Program-made: the position numbers and the translations under genes
Source of the DNA: a virus
Virus record (IMG/VR): IMGVR_UViG_3300003324_000283
Coordinates: 1 to 23,193 of that record
DNA: 23,193 nucleotides
Direction: 5' to 3' (one strand)
The notes under the pieces: generated by a model
The model's input: the letters and a program-made list of their open reading frames with translations, nothing else
Database searches by the model: none
Told to the model about the DNA's origin: nothing
Shown here: positions 958 to 13,942 of the stretch, piece by piece
Layout of the letters: every line of letters starts with the position of its first letter
How positions within the stretch are numbered: the first letter of the stretch is position 1

Positions 958-2459
958 TGCGAGAGAATGTCATAACAATTGTTAAATTGGATGAGGTATG
1001 GGGCAAAGTATTAGCCACAGACTCAGGAGTAATGGAAGCGCTCTATAAAGAGTTCTCTATCTACAAATTTAACCATTGGTTTGACCCTAAAGTAAAATTA
1101 GGAGTTTGGGACGGAAAAATTCATTTCGTAAAACATAATGGTGAATTCCCATTAGGTTTATTCAAAGATGTTCTGAAATTCTGTGAATGTCAGCGTGGAT
1201 ATGAACTCCAGATAGACCCTTGGTTTGGTCCCGAGATACAAGATAAAGACGAATTCATGGCAGACTACTTGAAGGTATTAGACGAAACAGAAAACTTACC
1301 GTTTATTCCTAGAAAATACCAAATAAAAGGCTCAATGAAGGCTATTTACCACAAACGCGCAATCATTGAGCACGGTACCGGTTCTGGTAAGTCTTTCACC
1401 ATATACCTCACTCTAAACTATCTTAGAAAGAAAAACCCGGATCATAAAGCGCTTATACTGGTTCCTAAACTAGACTTGATAACTCAATTCTATGACGATT
1501 TGATAAACTACGGCGCTGACCCAGCTTTACTCGGTAAGTATTACGGGGAAGAAAAAGATTTAGATGCTGCTATCACAATAGGCACATGGCAGTCGCTAAA
1601 GAACAACAAAAATTTCTTGAAAAAGTTTACTATTCTCATCGTTGACGAGTGTCATGGACAAAAAGCTGACGTTGTTCGCTCAGTAGCCGAAGGTGCTATC
1701 AATACCCAATACAGACTTGGTTTTACTGGAACCATGCCGGAAGAAGATAGAAAAGCAGACACCGCACAAATAATAGGTACCCTCGGTCCAGTTGTTGATA
1801 AGATAACAACTGAAGAGCTTCAAAAACTGAAAATGGTAAGCCAGTTGAAGATAAACATTCCGTACATCAGTTATCAAGACGAAGAAATAAAAGAACTCAA
1901 ATCATCTATTCGTATTCTCATGAAACAGAAAAAGCCAAGAGAAGCTTACCAGTTAGAAAAGACTTTCACTCAGAAACACGAAAAGAGAAACGCTTTTATT
2001 GGCAAAATAACCAAGAAAATGTTAGATTTGGATAGAAACGTATTGATATTGGTGAATAAGTTGGACCACGTTGATACTATAGTGGAAGCTTTGAAAGCAA
2101 TTAATATAAATCCATTTGTTGTTACTGGACAAGTAAAAGATACAGATGAAAGAAATGAAGTTAGAAAGAAAATGGAACTTTCTGGCGGAAATGTGATTGT
2201 GGCAACTAGTGGTGTATACTCTACTGGTATTTCTATAAATCGTCTTCACTGTGTTATATTTGCCGATCCTGGTAAATCTAAAATTACCACTTTACAATCC
2301 GTAGGTCGTGGTTTAAGATTACATGAGACAAAAGATAAGTTATACTTATTCGACGTTTCTGACAATCTTGTGTTTGGAAACAAGCACTTGGAGAAGAGAA
2401 TGGAATTCTATGCGAGAAATAATTTTGACGTTGAAATAAAGGAGATATCCTTTGCCTAA
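957..2459 (+). CDS. uvsW: UvsW-like superfamily 2 DNA/RNA helicase
   Basis: UvsW remodels branched recombination and stalled-fork intermediates and unwinds R-loops, which in T4 shifts replication from origins to recombination. The 500-aa product has a small N-terminal domain (about 1-110, containing KIHFVKHNGEFPLG) like the UvsW DNA-binding domain, then RecA-like domain 1 with Walker A GTGSGKS (140-146), motif II DECH (230-233) and motif III TGT (258-260). RecA-like domain 2 follows, with motif V near 415-426 and motif VI QSVGRGLR (447-454). It is somewhat shorter than T4 UvsW (587 aa, from memory), but all helicase motifs are intact. It overlaps uvsY by one base and the next gene by eight. 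Other SF2 helicases share these motifs; the N-terminal domain and the uvsY neighbour decide for UvsW. Confidence 0.92.
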   Translation: MRENVITIVKLDEVWGKVLATDSGVMEALYKEFSIYKFNHWFDPKVKLGVWDGKIHFVKHNGEFPLGLFKDVLKFCECQRGYELQIDPWFGPEIQDKDEFMADYLKVLDETENLPFIPRKYQIKGSMKAIYHKRAIIEHGTGSGKSFTIYLTLNYLRKKNPDHKALILVPKLDLITQFYDDLINYGADPALLGKYYGEEKDLDAAITIGTWQSLKNNKNFLKKFTILIVDECHGQKADVVRSVAEGAINTQYRLGFTGTMPEEDRKADTAQIIGTLGPVVDKITTEELQKLKMVSQLKINIPYISYQDEEIKELKSSIRILMKQKKPREAYQLEKTFTQKHEKRNAFIGKITKKMLDLDRNVLILVNKLDHVDTIVEALKAININPFVVTGQVKDTDERNEVRKKMELSGGNVIVATSGVYSTGISINRLHCVIFADPGKSKITTLQSVGRGLRLHETKDKLYLFDVSDNLVFGNKHLEKRMEFYARNNFDVEIKEISFA

Positions 2460-4431
2460 GTTTCGTAATGTAAGCCAAAAACAGATTAACATAATTTCTA
2501 ATGGTAGAAAAATACCAGTTCCGCCAAATGGTGAGATAGATGGTCCTGCTGAATTTGTTATGTACGCGGGTTTGCGTGCCATCAACCATAGCGTTGATAG
2601 GAAATCCGTAGATGTTAATAAGAGCGTTCTAATGAACAAAAATCTCATGGAAAACAAAAACGCATTACCAAATAACGTTGTTAAAAACGTTTTCAAACCG
2701 CCAACTCAATCAGCAACTCGCGTAAACTCATCTATGATACCTATTCCGGATATATTTCCAGTAGATGACGGGTTTGATAAAAACAGAGAAATAGATAACA
2801 CTATTCGCCATTTAGAATCCTATCCAAAACATTTACCTACTATTGGTATTTGTATTCTAACTAAGAATTCATTAGAACTTATTCGTGACTGTTGCGATTC
2901 TATTTTAGAACACGTTGCCTATCCTGGTACAAAACTGTATATATTTGATACCGGTACTACAGAAATACCAGTATTGAACTATTACGAAACTCTAAAGAAA
3001 AACGGTAAGTATCCTGTAGAAGTAATCAACGTCGGCGCTTTCCACTTTTCAGCTAATTACAACGTCGGTATTGATAAAGTAAATACTGATTACGTCATAA
3101 TTCAAAATAACGACACGAAAGCAATAAACGATTATATTTCAAGATTGATGCGTGTTGCCATTATTGAAAAAGTAGGTTTATCTGGTCCTCGCATGTTGTT
3201 TACCAATGGTACTATTCAACACGATGGGCAACAACTCTATAACGATAGAGGTAAATTAGAAAACCCAGGACACGTAAATTTCGGTGCGCCTAGAGAAATA
3301 GCCGGCGGTAGACACGTTGTAGACGGTATTACCGCTGCAGGTGTTCTATTGAAAACCGCATGGTTCAAGGAACTAAACGGATTTGACGTTGGTTTCAAAG
3401 ACATCTATCAAGACGTTCACTTTTGTATGAAAAACAAGATGAACGGTAAGATGTCCGTATGTGATAGAGATGCGCTTATCTACCATTATGATAATACGTC
3501 TCGTAAGAAGTTATGGAACGATCCAGCTAAAATAGCCGACATGCGTAAAGACCATAACTATCTTTATAGAAAAGTAAATGAGGGCGAACTACAAATCAAG
3601 ATTAGAAAAAAGAAAAAATTCAGTCTTATTACGCTAGTCAACAACAACACTCAGTATTTTGATTTCTTAAACGATATACGAAACCAGAACAGTAAAGATA
3701 GTTTTGAAATAATAGCTTTACCTAACTATAACAACGAATACCGTTCTTGCGCTCAAGCGCTAAATGTGGGTATGGATATATCCGAAAGTGAATATTGTAT
3801 TCTATGTCACCAGGACTTGAGAATGGGTCCGGATTGGCTTAGTGGTATTTCCAAACATATTGACGATATGAACGCCAGAGGTATCAATTGGGGAACAATT
3901 GGTATGGCCGGAAGTTATCGCTATAGTAAGACCCATGACGTTGGTATAACGTATTTGGACAACAATGACGAAGCAAACCCAGGAAAAAGATGCGTTGATA
4001 CCTACAGAGAAAAATATGGTCAACGTGTAGAGGTACAAACTCTAGATGAGCTTTGTATTGTCACCAAAACCAATATCGGAATAAGATTTGACGAACAAGC
4101 ATTTAACCATTATCATTGGTACGGTGCCGATTTCTGTCTCAATGCGTTATCAAGAGGATATAAGAATTACGTCATAGACGCATCTTGTACTCACCTTTCT
4201 GATGGATTCAGCAATCTTATAAAGGAAGAACATAAAGCGAAGTATTTAGAAGGTGCCGCATCATTATTCAATAAGTGGAAATTAGTTTTCCCTCATTTCA
4301 GAACAATGACTGCTATCTTCTCGAAACAAACTAACAACGAAGGTAAAGAGGTATATCTAGTACATTTTTACGTAGCCGACGAACTAATAAAACGTGGACA
4401 TCATTTCCCTAAAGGGATTAGCATATCATAA
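2452..4431 (+). CDS. Tandem-domain family 2 glycosyltransferase
   Basis: This 659-aa protein probably transfers sugars from nucleotide-sugar donors. An N-terminal region (1-125) begins with a short beta-rich segment (about 1-50) and continues into a low-complexity linker. The first GT-A domain (about 128-350) has the GT2 opening PTIGICILTKN and a metal-binding position reading NND (219-221), followed by GVLLKTAWFKELNGFD, a typical acceptor-side GT2 motif. The second domain (about 389-600) opens with FSLITLVNNN and has CHQDL (452-456) in the equivalent place. No membrane segment is seen, so it should be cytoplasmic. The start is TTG (2452), supported by AAGGAG six bases upstream and inside the end of uvsW (8-base overlap). 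Donor and acceptor cannot be read from sequence; the rml genes at 18.8-21.2 kb could supply the donor. Confidence 0.85.
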   Translation: MPKFRNVSQKQINIISNGRKIPVPPNGEIDGPAEFVMYAGLRAINHSVDRKSVDVNKSVLMNKNLMENKNALPNNVVKNVFKPPTQSATRVNSSMIPIPDIFPVDDGFDKNREIDNTIRHLESYPKHLPTIGICILTKNSLELIRDCCDSILEHVAYPGTKLYIFDTGTTEIPVLNYYETLKKNGKYPVEVINVGAFHFSANYNVGIDKVNTDYVIIQNNDTKAINDYISRLMRVAIIEKVGLSGPRMLFTNGTIQHDGQQLYNDRGKLENPGHVNFGAPREIAGGRHVVDGITAAGVLLKTAWFKELNGFDVGFKDIYQDVHFCMKNKMNGKMSVCDRDALIYHYDNTSRKKLWNDPAKIADMRKDHNYLYRKVNEGELQIKIRKKKKFSLITLVNNNTQYFDFLNDIRNQNSKDSFEIIALPNYNNEYRSCAQALNVGMDISESEYCILCHQDLRMGPDWLSGISKHIDDMNARGINWGTIGMAGSYRYSKTHDVGITYLDNNDEANPGKRCVDTYREKYGQRVEVQTLDELCIVTKTNIGIRFDEQAFNHYHWYGADFCLNALSRGYKNYVIDASCTHLSDGFSNLIKEEHKAKYLEGAASLFNKWKLVFPHFRTMTAIFSKQTNNEGKEVYLVHFYVADELIKRGHHFPKGISIS

Positions 4432-4447
4432 ACGCCATAAACAACAT

Positions 4448-4476
4448 TTGAATTAATTGAAACGATACCGTATAAT
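4448..4476 (+). promoter_or_regulatory. Sigma70-type promoter opening the 4.4-4.9 kb intergenic region
   Basis: TTGAAT (4448-4453), a 17-base spacer and a perfect TATAAT (4471-4476) make one of the best sigma70-like promoters in the window. Transcription should begin near 4483, directly at the left arm of a 7-bp hairpin. No gene with a ribosome binding site follows on this strand before 4933, which points to a noncoding transcript. Confidence 0.65.
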
Positions 4477-4482
4477 TACAAA

Positions 4483-4908
4483 CTGAGGTTCCTAAGTTAG
4501 TCCAACCTCACAAATATAAAGGACAGCAGAAAACAGATATTAAAAGTCGCATTTTACTTTTATTGTCTGGCAAACAAACGAAAGAATGTTTGAGAAAAGA
4601 AGAATGCAGCCGAAAACATAAGATACTCTTACGGTAAAATAAGAGAGAAGCCTTGGCTCTTTATCACATATTGACTTTAGCCACTTATTTTTGGGATACC
4701 AAAAGTGAGATTAGGAATACTTGTGTCTATGTGAAAAATAAGCCAATTTATCGCAGAAAAGAAAAAATATTCATACAAATTAATTATGCGGAGTGACGAT
4801 AGTCACGACGCAGAACGAGCAACGAAGTTGTAAGTTCATGATCAATATAAGTTAATTAAAGTTAATACACCAAAACAAAAAAGCCACGTAATTTAATTTT
4901 ACGTGGCT
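4483..4908 (+). ncRNA. Candidate structured noncoding RNA, about 425 nt
   Basis: This 500-base gap (4432-4932) holds no convincing ORF but begins with a strong promoter and contains a string of hairpins. They are: TGAGGTT/AACCTCA (4484-4490 with 4504-4510); a 14-position stem with one mismatch (4534-4547 with 4556-4569, core TAAAAGT/ACTTTTA); CAAAC/GTTTG (4575-4592); CTCTTA/TAAGAG (4626-4645); TTTTGG-GATA-CCAAAA flanked by CAC/GTG (4682-4707); TGCG-GA-GTGAC-GATA-GTCAC-GA-CGCA (4787-4812), with a symmetric GA/GA internal loop; and GAAC-GAG-CAAC-GAA-GTTG-TAA-GTTC (4813-4837). A final 10-bp hairpin (4882-4908) may end it. I do not recognise tmRNA, RNase P, 6S or tRNA features. The strand is set by the promoter; the extent is inferred. 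No covariation can be judged from one sequence. Confidence 0.5.
4877..4908 (-). terminator. Rho-independent terminator of the gp55-gp47-gp46 unit
   Basis: A perfect 10-bp stem (AGCCACGTAA 4882-4891, TTACGTGGCT 4899-4908) with a 7-base loop is followed on the minus strand by TTTTTT and then another T run. It lies 25 bases past the gp46 stop. On the plus strand the bases after the stem are only moderately T-rich, so it may be a weaker terminator for the candidate RNA in that direction. Confidence 0.85.
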
Positions 4909-4932
4909 AATCTAGTTTAATTGTTTGAGAAA

Positions 4933-6711
4933 CTACTTACTGCTTATACCCTCTATAGAAGTAAACCCGTCTCTCTTTACGAGATTGATTATGCTATCGA
5001 AGTGTTCTTCTCCTAGTTCTTTTCTATGAGTAATAACGTAGATAGCTTTATCCGGATAAGCGACTTTGAAAGCTGTGTTAAGATGTTCCATAAAGCATTC
5101 AACACCATCAGCATCCATAGACGTATCTAAAATTTCATCTAATATGAGAATATTAGTATCTATAGAGTTCTGTAACTTAGACACATCAATAAGAGCAAGT
5201 AAAAGAGCTAAGTCAATTCTTCTTTTTTCACCACCGGAAAACGATGCGTATGGCATTGGATCGCGATTACGAGAAATAAGTTTTTCTGTAAGCTCAGAGT
5301 CAAAGATAATAGTATAGTCACTTCCTAAAACACTCAAATAATGGTTTGCTTTCTTGTTTAAGAAAGGAAGAACTTTTTTAACCACATACTTACTTACACC
5401 TTCTTCACCAAGTATATTACGTATAAACTTATGATAGTCAAATTTAGTAACAGATGACTTGAATTTATCTTCAAATCCTTTTACTTCGTTTTCTTGTTTA
5501 ATTAGAACTTCATCTGAAATGATATTTGCTATATCTAAGGTTCTCAAACTCTCTTGCTTACCTGCTTCTTTTTTAGCTTCAATCTTTTCATTCAAAGAAT
5601 TGATTTGGAGATTATACTTATTCAAATTTTTCTCTAAAGAATATACTTCATTGTGTAAAGACAGTCTTTTATCTTCTAAGCTAGATGTTTTTTGTTTGTT
5701 CAAAGAAATCTTAGTTTGACATTCAATAACATTCTTTTTTTCGGCTTCAATATATTCTTTTATTTTCGGATTATCTGATTGGCTAGTTTTACATAAAGGA
5801 CAATGTGGGGAGTTGTCTAATTTACTGATAACTTCCTTACTATTCTTTATGGAAACCTCAAGTTCACGATTTTCAAGATTTATTTTTGAAACTTCATCAT
5901 TAACAGCATCTCTTTCCGCTGTCACTTGTTTAATTTTGTTTTCAAAATCACTTTCTTGAATCAATGTTTCAATGGTTTTCTTTTCAAGAACAAGAGCTTT
6001 ACCTTCTTTCTTTATTCTTTCAATATTTTCTTTCTTTTGTTCTTCAAACTTCTGACTTTCCTTCAAAAGACTTTCACGTCTTTCTTTCGTAACTTTCAAA
6101 GCTTCCAGTCCGTTCTTCAAAAGACTTTCATAGTTCTTCACGTCACTCTTGGCTTCAAGGTGCTTATCCTTGGCAATGTCAGACATCTTTGCGAATATTC
6201 CTAAAGAAAGAATATCCTCAAGCACTGGTCTTTTTTCTTGTGGAGTCATTTCGAGGAATGGTTTTGAATGATTTACGTTTAATACAATCATGTTAGTGAA
6301 AGCTGTATAACTAATACAAATCTTTTCTTCTAACCATTTTTGAGTTTCAGACATGGATGAGAATTCAACTTCTTTACCGTTTTCCCAAATCTTAAGATAA
6401 GTAGGTCCAATTCCTCTTTCAACCTTATAGTCTATTCCTCTAATTTCAAATTCAGAAGAAACGACACAATCCTTACCGTTGTTTACGGAATTAGCTATTT
6501 TGTCTTTAGCTACTTTTCTAATAGGTTTTCCGAATACAGCAAAGGCAATCGAATCGCTGAGCAAGGATGACTTACCTACACCGTTTCTCTTGTTTCCTGG
6601 TTCTACTTTACCGGAAACGGCATGGATACCGTTTTTGTACTCAAAAACAGTCTCAACATTTCCGAAACTAAGGAAGTTCTTAACGGTTACGTTCTTAAAT
6701 ATTATCTTCAC
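4933..6711 (-). CDS. 46: gp46-like recombination nuclease subunit (Rad50/SbcC family ATPase)
   Basis: With gp47 this forms the Mre11/Rad50-type complex that resects DNA ends to start recombination-dependent replication. The 592-aa protein has an N-terminal ABC half with Walker A in NGVGKSS (43-49). Two long charged helices (about 175-300 and 315-420) flank a zinc hook, CPLC (304-307). The C-terminal half has the ABC signature SFSGGEKRR (490-498), Walker B ILILDE (521-526), the D-loop LDTSMD (528-533) and an H-loop His (about 562). The usual first Gly of Walker A is Lys41, a minor variation. Length is close to T4 gp46 (560). The start is GTG (6711), with AAAGGG upstream. It follows gp47 by 32 bases, and an extended -10 in that gap gives it its own promoter. 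Confidence 0.95.
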   Translation of the reverse strand: MKIIFKNVTVKNFLSFGNVETVFEYKNGIHAVSGKVEPGNKRNGVGKSSLLSDSIAFAVFGKPIRKVAKDKIANSVNNGKDCVVSSEFEIRGIDYKVERGIGPTYLKIWENGKEVEFSSMSETQKWLEEKICISYTAFTNMIVLNVNHSKPFLEMTPQEKRPVLEDILSLGIFAKMSDIAKDKHLEAKSDVKNYESLLKNGLEALKVTKERRESLLKESQKFEEQKKENIERIKKEGKALVLEKKTIETLIQESDFENKIKQVTAERDAVNDEVSKINLENRELEVSIKNSKEVISKLDNSPHCPLCKTSQSDNPKIKEYIEAEKKNVIECQTKISLNKQKTSSLEDKRLSLHNEVYSLEKNLNKYNLQINSLNEKIEAKKEAGKQESLRTLDIANIISDEVLIKQENEVKGFEDKFKSSVTKFDYHKFIRNILGEEGVSKYVVKKVLPFLNKKANHYLSVLGSDYTIIFDSELTEKLISRNRDPMPYASFSGGEKRRIDLALLLALIDVSKLQNSIDTNILILDEILDTSMDADGVECFMEHLNTAFKVAYPDKAIYVITHRKELGEEHFDSIINLVKRDGFTSIEGISSK

Positions 6712-8315: not shown

Positions 8316-8343
8316 TTAGAAACCCATAGTAATGATGTATAAT
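8316..8343 (+). promoter_or_regulatory. Probable promoter of the GT-B glycosyltransferase operon
   Basis: A perfect TATAAT (8338-8343) sits 16 bases after TTAGAA (8316-8321), a -35 with four of six consensus bases. Transcription would start near 8350, giving a leader of about 40 bases that contains ATTGGCTTATTTTT and a good ribosome binding site (AAGGAG). It is back to back with the gp55 promoter, the two -10 boxes being one base apart on opposite strands. Confidence 0.4.
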
Positions 8344-8344
8344 T

Positions 8345-8353
8345 ATTATAACA
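8345..8353 (-). promoter_or_regulatory. Extended -10 promoter of gene 55
   Basis: On the minus strand TGtTATAAT is a perfect extended -10 without a clear -35. Transcription would start near 8338, about 35 bases upstream of the gp55 ATG. It is the same TGnTATAAT type seen before uvsY, gene 46 and uvsX. Confidence 0.55.
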
Positions 8354-8389
8354 ATAATTGGCTTATTTTTGTAATAAAAAGGAGAACGC

Positions 8390-9568
8390 ATGAATGCGCC
8401 TGTGATCCCACCTATCCCACAAACAAGATATATTCCACCTGCAGAGTTGCCAGATCATTTGAAAGGTTCTGCCAATAGAAACTTAATGGCTGCTGGCGTT
8501 AACGTGGGGGCTCACCCAAACAATGCTCCAGTTCGTAAGGCAGACCCTAAGTCTGTTCTTTTATTCCCATCGGATAGAAACGGATGTGGATTCTACAGAA
8601 CTATAGTTCCATTCAGCCATCTTATTTCTAAGTATGAATACGATGCTCCTACTTTGTTTTCATTCGTATTTGACTTGAATTTCATCACAAAATCCAAGTG
8701 GCTCCGTTTCCAACGTCAAGTTACTAAGGACCAAAAGAAGGTTATCGTTGAGTACAGAAAGGTAATCAAGAAGATAAACGCAGAAACTAAAATGGCGTTT
8801 GAATTGGACGACCTTGTTCACGCTATTGAACCATCTAACATTGTCGCTTATCAGTTCTATACTGAAACCAGAAAGCAAAACCTCATTGACGTTATGAAGA
8901 TGTCTGATGTTGTAACTTTTAGCACCGAATTCTTGAAAGACTTCTATAAGCAGAATTTTGGCATTACTCATTCTGTAGTTGTGCCAAATTTCTTACCTAA
9001 GTACCTTTGGCAAGATAAAGGTAAGCGTAACAAGAGAAATAAGGGTTCAAAGCCAAGAATACTATGGGCTGGTTCTTCTTCTCACGTAGGTAAGAATGGT
9101 GACTTGGAATTCATGATTCCTCTTATCAGAAAGACTAAGAATGAATTTGAATGGGTATTCTTAGGTGTTATGCCTCCGGAATTGAATGGACAATTTGAAT
9201 TCCACGAATGGGCTGATTTCTATGCTTATCCACACGCTTTGGATTCTATAGATGCTGATGTTGGTATCTGTCCAATCGTTGATAATACTTTCAATTATGC
9301 TAAGAGCGACTTGAAGTTGTTGGAATATACAGCTATCAATATGCCAGGTATATTCTCAACTATTGGACAAGGTATGGGTCCGTATGATTTGGTTGACGGT
9401 ATTTGTACTGTAAACAATCAAGTAGACGATTGGTACAATGCCATTAAGAAAGTAATAAGCGATGAGTCTTACAGAGAATCCATCATGAACGCTCAACGTG
9501 CGGAATTGAATGGTAGATGGTTGGAAGACGAAAAGAATATTGGGCATTATCTCAATATCTACAAGTAA
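8390..9568 (+). CDS. GT-B fold glycosyltransferase (GT4-like)
   Basis: The 392-aa protein probably transfers a sugar from a nucleotide donor. A proline-rich, disordered N-terminus (1-50) precedes a first Rossmann domain (about 53-200) with a CGFYRTIVPF motif, an ELDDL (138-142) and a segment FSTEFLKDFY typical of this family. The second domain opens at KPRILWAGSSSHVGKNGDL (221-239), a GT4-like donor-site start. It continues through VGICPI (291-296) and KSDLKLLEYTA (305-315), the region where the E-x7-E motif contacts the nucleotide sugar in GT4 enzymes. No signal peptide or membrane segment is seen. A GGAG ribosome binding site lies before ATG 8390. The donor is unknown; the phage rml genes are an obvious candidate source. 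Two small unknown genes follow in the same unit. Confidence 0.85.
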   Translation: MNAPVIPPIPQTRYIPPAELPDHLKGSANRNLMAAGVNVGAHPNNAPVRKADPKSVLLFPSDRNGCGFYRTIVPFSHLISKYEYDAPTLFSFVFDLNFITKSKWLRFQRQVTKDQKKVIVEYRKVIKKINAETKMAFELDDLVHAIEPSNIVAYQFYTETRKQNLIDVMKMSDVVTFSTEFLKDFYKQNFGITHSVVVPNFLPKYLWQDKGKRNKRNKGSKPRILWAGSSSHVGKNGDLEFMIPLIRKTKNEFEWVFLGVMPPELNGQFEFHEWADFYAYPHALDSIDADVGICPIVDNTFNYAKSDLKLLEYTAINMPGIFSTIGQGMGPYDLVDGICTVNNQVDDWYNAIKKVISDESYRESIMNAQRAELNGRWLEDEKNIGHYLNIYK

Positions 9569-13934: not shown

Positions 13935-13942
13935 TATTTATA
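13935..13942 (-). promoter_or_regulatory. T4-type late promoter TATAAATA
   Basis: On the minus strand TATAAATA, the exact T4 late promoter -10 consensus, lies 17 bases upstream of the ATG of the 173-aa gene. It reads TATATAAATAGC in context. Recognition by gp55-bearing RNA polymerase is expected from T4 biology. No -35 is needed for this class. Confidence 0.6.

Follow-up and report, generated by a model that had tools for sequence, protein, structure and literature searches.

A candidate noncoding RNA headed by a pseudoknot between the glycosyltransferase and gp46 genes of a T4-like phage lineage

To our knowledge, few structured noncoding RNAs have been described from lytic T4-like phages, and almost none of these has an assigned function. 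In T4 itself, the gene 32 mRNA carries an H-type pseudoknot which is bound by a phage protein. The manA and wcaG RNAs of T4-like cyanophages are covarying structured RNAs that constitute 5'-UTR elements of metabolic genes (PMC2864571). GOLLD and ROOL, both encoded by phages, are large, structured and pseudoknotted noncoding RNAs, the function of which is unknown (PMC12286853). Finally, the pseudo-ToxI of phage PhiTE is an RNA pseudoknot that is made during infection and occupies a host defence protein, an RNase (PMC3475682).

The 23,193-base virus record analysed here (hereafter, the window) comes from a T4-like phage encoding homologues of uvsW, gp46, gp47, gp55, DNA polymerase, uvsX and gp41, of which gp55 and gp41 were named by context and homologues, without a Pfam match. 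The gp46 and polymerase are only ~30-33% identical to those of any GenBank phage. A gap of 501 nt (positions 4432-4932), located between two recombination-gene operons, separates the convergent genes for a glycosyltransferase (GT) and gp46 (Table 1). The earlier note had described this gap as devoid of a credible gene, and this assessment holds: only one open reading frame (ORF) inside it reaches 40 aa, a 47-aa frame with a TTG start, for which no counterpart was found in the homologous gaps of the relatives described below, and no conserved small ORF is present in those gaps. The predicted fold of positions 4483-4915 has a free energy of -104.7 kcal/mol, compared with -73.1 +/- 5.1 kcal/mol for shuffled sequences (z = -6.2; none of the 100 shuffles was as good).

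Table 1. Positions of the features discussed in the text (window coordinates unless a relative is named)
Feature	Position	Strand	Description
GT gene	2452-4431	+	Two glycosyltransferase domains
Sigma70-type promoter TTGAAT-N17-TATAAT	4448-4476	+	TTGAAT 4448-4453, TATAAT 4471-4476; 10/12 consensus
Conserved core of the noncoding RNA (P1/PK1, P2, P3, PK2/P4, P5)	4483-4734	+	Homologues in L171, L172, L176; covariation
P1 hairpin	4484-4510	+	Stem 4484-4490/4504-4510, loop CCUAAGUUAGUCC
PK1	4496-4529	+	Loop GUCC (4500-4503) pairs with GGAC (4521-4524); H-type pseudoknot
P2 hairpin	4534-4569	+	14-nt arms, 86% complementary
P3 hairpin CAAAC/GUUUG	4571-4592	+	Loop AAACGAAAGAAU
PK2/P4	4609-4645	+	GCCG (4609-4612) pairs with CGGU (4632-4635) in the loop of P4 (4626-4631/4640-4645)
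P5 long-range stem UCACAUA/UAUGUGA	4664-4734	+	4664-4670/4728-4734; encloses inner hairpin 4684-4709
Two strong hairpins with tandem G-A mismatches	4787-4837	+	z = -5.8 for 4780-4880
Intrinsic terminator, mainly of the gp46 operon	4882-4908	-	10-pair stem, then TTTTTGTTTT on the minus strand
gp46 gene	4933-6711	-	Converges with GT
Second RNA type	L174:6443-6714; L181:10655-10929; L182:10644-10918	+; -; -	5' pseudoknot, four-way junction

None of the 4227 Rfam models, including those of GOLLD and ROOL, matched the window or the relatives L171, L172, L174, L176, L181 and L182 at the gathering cut-off, and the best sub-threshold match of the window gap scored 23.9 bits against a cut-off of 60. 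The proposal of a structured RNA belonging to no known class is therefore upheld, given also the covariation described below and the lack of a conserved small ORF. Group I and group II introns and known riboswitches were rejected for want of an Rfam match, and tRNA or tmRNA because none was found, a tRNA search of the window being negative. Among phage RNAs, GOLLD and ROOL are the nearest in kind, being structured and pseudoknotted; however, the window RNA is shorter, occupies the GT-gp46 site rather than the vicinity of tRNA genes, and has different helices. With manA and wcaG it shares covarying structure and a T4-like phage as its source, but the Rfam models of these RNAs find no match here and the window has no gene for the RNA to control. 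Similarly, the likeness to the T4 gene 32 mRNA is that of an H-type pseudoknot in a T4-like phage RNA, although the window pseudoknot precedes neither gene 32 nor any other ORF. The resemblance to the PhiTE pseudo-ToxI and the type III antitoxin RNAs likewise resides in an H-type pseudoknot of phage RNA. A 5' H-type pseudoknot with an A-rich loop, together with the PhiTE precedent, would be in keeping with a decoy that binds a host RNase of a type III toxin-antitoxin or abortive-infection system. Pseudo-ToxI and type III antitoxins, however, consist of tandem 36-nt repeats, whereas here a single pseudoknot heads a longer RNA, most of which lies outside the pseudoknot and which contains only scattered short direct repeats, so that we consider such a decoy unlikely.

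Using short signature peptides of gp46, GT and gp47, we identified eight metagenomic relatives with the same gene block (L088, L171, L172, L174, L176, L177, L181 and L182), the GT or gp46 of which show ~41-50% protein identity to those of the window. At this level of divergence, unconstrained DNA should be saturated. Single-protein scans of viral contigs with gp46 and GT yielded no matches, and an alignment of distant gp46 homologues contained only relatives of ~30% identity without this gene arrangement. In the data searched, RNA of the window type (hereafter, the first type) is present in four phages, namely, the window phage, L171, L172 and L176. The DNA pattern CTAAGTTAGTYN{10,30}RACAGCAG matched 40 viral stretches across all of IMG/VR, but the matches continuing into the rest of the RNA were confined to the three phages already known, with no further phage among the hits inspected, and the other matches look like chance. 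The 84,980 cellular genomes scanned with a stricter signature pattern contained no match. Blastn of the RNAs against GenBank phages yielded chance-level matches only, and a homologue there was rejected.

The promoter predicted in the earlier note is present in the window, with an equally good match in 4 of 200 shuffles of the region following the GT stop codon. Promoter-like sites occur in seven phages, with the -10 box ending 23-45 nt past the GT stop; those of L174 (TTGAAG-17-TATAAT), L176 (TTGACA-16-TCTAAT) and L177 (TTGAAA-17-TATACT) are, like that of the window, rare in shuffles (0-7 of 200), whereas the weaker sites of L088 (27/200), L171 (170/200) and L172 (153/200) are not rare by themselves. 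In L181 and L182, the search past GT found no good promoter. In agreement with the earlier note, in which the first hairpin starts at the predicted first base, P1 begins 6-9 nt past the -10 box in all four phages with the first RNA type, so that transcription from this promoter should start at P1.

The first-type RNA opens with a 5'-terminal H-type pseudoknot formed by P1 and PK1, in which CUAAGUUAGUC and GACAGCAG are invariant in the window, L171, L172 and L176. The signature shared by the four phages comprises the -10 box, a spacer of 6-9 nt, a hairpin with CUAAGUUAGUCY in its loop, an A-rich linker (4511-4520 in the window) and RGACAGCAG, which includes the invariant CAG following the pseudoknot. 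The P1 pairs are in register in all four sequences, and each of the six pairs counted displays double compensatory changes. In PK1, all 16 cells are paired, and a C-G pair is replaced by U-A in L171 through changes of both strands (GUCU/AGAC); RNAalifold further proposes an extension of this helix, GUU/AGC, around a bulged A. The central C-G pair of PK2 in the window is replaced by G-C in L171, L172 and L176. The remaining helices were matched by eye, P2-P4 having been misaligned by MAFFT and compared by hand, and constitute weaker evidence than P1, PK1 and PK2. At the place corresponding to P2, hairpins of differing sequence are found in L171, L172 and L176; the P3 stems of L172 and L176 differ in sequence but carry similar loops; and P5, predicted in the window, has a comparable predicted stem in L171 and tentative ones in L172 and L176. 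Overall, the part of the RNA common to the relatives spans ~250 nt (4483-4734). The picture of a hairpin-rich RNA offered by the earlier note is correct in essence, also as regards P1 at +1, but a series of independent hairpins misses the pseudoknots. The RNA core also contains a near-repeat, CAGCAGAAAACA (4524-4535) and CAGCCGAAAACA (4607-4618), which overlaps PK1 and PK2. Downstream of the core, the two hairpins at 4787-4837 were not seen in L171, L172 or L176; very stable hairpins with tandem G-A mismatches of this kind (cGAGC...GCGAg type) occur also in L088, at ~8338-8375.

In L174, L181 and L182, the same place just after GT is occupied by a second RNA type, unrelated to the first in sequence. 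It also starts with an H-type pseudoknot (in L182, CUUCCU/AGGAAG with UCAAUG/CAUUGA), followed by a four-way junction, the arms of which include a GGAG tetraloop hairpin and a UGGAG-loop hairpin, and by a GNRA hairpin. A covariance model (R1) built from its 3' part matches only L174, L181 and L182, whole records included, and finds no match in the window, L088, L171, L172, L176 or the whole records behind these loci, so that a single model for both RNA types was rejected. The presence of GGAG in the loops of two hairpins might point to CsrA or anti-Shine-Dalgarno binding in the second type; a CsrA-sponge reading was not retained, as the window RNA lacks these loops. By eye, a plausible pseudoknot built in the same way is present in L088, where CACAGU/ACUGUG is combined with GUCG/CGAC (the pairing was checked) and an AGUUGGUC resembles AGUUAGUC. 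In L177 (3504-3850), where the gene order is rearranged, a hairpin and nine consecutive T stand ~100 nt beyond the promoter-like site after GT and may belong to a third, short RNA. In L180, the sequence downstream of gp46 (~8400-8761) includes part of a gene that, by eye, looks like a TnpB-type protein at its zinc-ribbon end.

Covariation in homologous intergenic regions, by which the earlier note had proposed to judge the RNA, is present in both types. In the first, 8 of the 14 in-register pairs carry double compensatory changes and 87.5% of cells are paired, a count that is conservative at PK2, where the alignment places L171 one column off; sliding the partners by 1-3 columns lowers double changes to 0-1 pairs and paired cells to 29-38%. 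In the second, double changes are found in 24 of the 52 pairs, with 99.4% of cells paired, compared with 36-47% for slid partners. The sequences behind these comparisons are few, four of the first type and three of the second, and the sequences counted are also those from which the structures were derived, which favours these structures over the slid controls; nevertheless, double changes in 8/14 and 24/52 pairs are hard to obtain from such circularity. At the level of sequence comparison, the analysis shows that the pseudoknot helices are maintained by compensatory changes. The plus strand is the selected one, as shown by the G-U pairs kept in P2 and PK2 and, in the second type, in helix 3. 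That the folding is a chance property of AT-rich spacer DNA is favoured by the sub-segments of L171, L172 and L176, which fold no better than shuffles; however, the z-score of the window and the disappearance of compensatory changes with slid partners make this extremely improbable, and for the conserved core it is refuted by the covariation of both RNA types against the slid controls. Pairing within the RNA being under selection also speaks against an origin transcript priming phage replication via an R-loop, as at T4 origins, since such priming needs unpaired RNA. A promoter with noncoding sequence behind it would suit this role, as would the neighbouring recombination genes and uvsW, the T4 homologue of which unwinds R-loops, but we regard such a transcript as very unlikely.

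Sequence at the site downstream of GT is noncoding whatever comes next. In the window, L088, L174 and L176, gp46 follows directly, whereas in L171, L172, L181 and L182 an ORF intervenes before gp46, its start codon being separated from the RNA by a T4-late-type TATAAATA box of its own. The insertion of dissimilar late-promoter ORFs at one site gives the interval the look of a cargo-gene hot spot. In the window itself, TATAAATA boxes are found just upstream of genes at 13942 (-) and 21205 (+), and correspond to T4-type late promoters, suggesting that the phage probably keeps the gp55 late system. The plus-strand ORFs that follow the RNA in four relatives would be compatible with a cis-acting leader (riboswitch or translational operator), the downstream gene of which the window phage would have lost. 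However, these ORFs look mutually unrelated except for those of L181 and L182, each is separated from the RNA by its own late-type box, and the RNA is retained in the window, L174 and L176, which have no downstream plus-strand gene but only the convergent gp46. The RNA is thus not tied to a particular downstream gene, and a cis-acting leader is an unlikely explanation. With its own predicted promoter, no coding frame and a covarying structure, the locus instead has the attributes of a stand-alone noncoding RNA gene.

The terminal hairpin reported in the earlier note does exist, at the 3' side of the gap, but its role as terminator of the RNA is not supported as stated: TTTTTGTTTT follows it on the minus strand only, the plus-strand tail being AATCTAGTTT, and the same minus-strand arrangement of hairpin and U-run is found in L176, so that it reads mainly as a terminator for the gp46 operon. 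Accordingly, the proposed RNA length of ~425 nt is not established. A good minus-strand terminator between converging genes might indicate that the whole gap is a structured 3' UTR and termination zone of the two operons, with no RNA of its own. A terminator, however, has no need of two pseudoknots with invariant loop sequence, and in several phages a sigma70 promoter stands right where P1 begins; we judge such a zone improbable.

The likeliest reading, which we put forward tentatively from the sequence data, is that of a stand-alone RNA, transcribed early from a host sigma70-type promoter and acting in trans, probably by binding a protein. The promoter would produce a transcript starting at P1, and the RNA would be made early by the unmodified host polymerase, as suggested by the contrast between its host-type promoter and the T4-late TATAAATA boxes on the inserted genes of the relatives. 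The 5' pseudoknot may protect the 5' end and present a fixed surface. In trans, the RNA would then bind a protein and keep it occupied, host proteins of RNA binding, RNA processing or defence being the likeliest targets; for this step, architecture and precedent are the guides. Occupation of a protein in the course of an arms race would explain the persistence of architecture and location alongside a divergence, below the pseudoknot, into types unrelated in sequence. It is possible, although less probable than the reading above, that these RNAs form a new class of early phage RNAs at a fixed site in this lineage, with a constant 5' pseudoknot cap and a body that is repeatedly swapped for unrelated folds, serving as arms-race RNAs that sequester or inhibit a host defence or RNA-processing protein.

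The finding adds a predicted pseudoknot-headed RNA, without a match among the Rfam families, to a little-known T4-like lineage. At least two sequence-unrelated RNA types share one address and begin alike with an H-type pseudoknot, which points to strong selection for the presence of an RNA at this place. Together, the covariation support, the predicted start site and the constant genomic address make the 5' end, the partner and the effect of this RNA directly testable.
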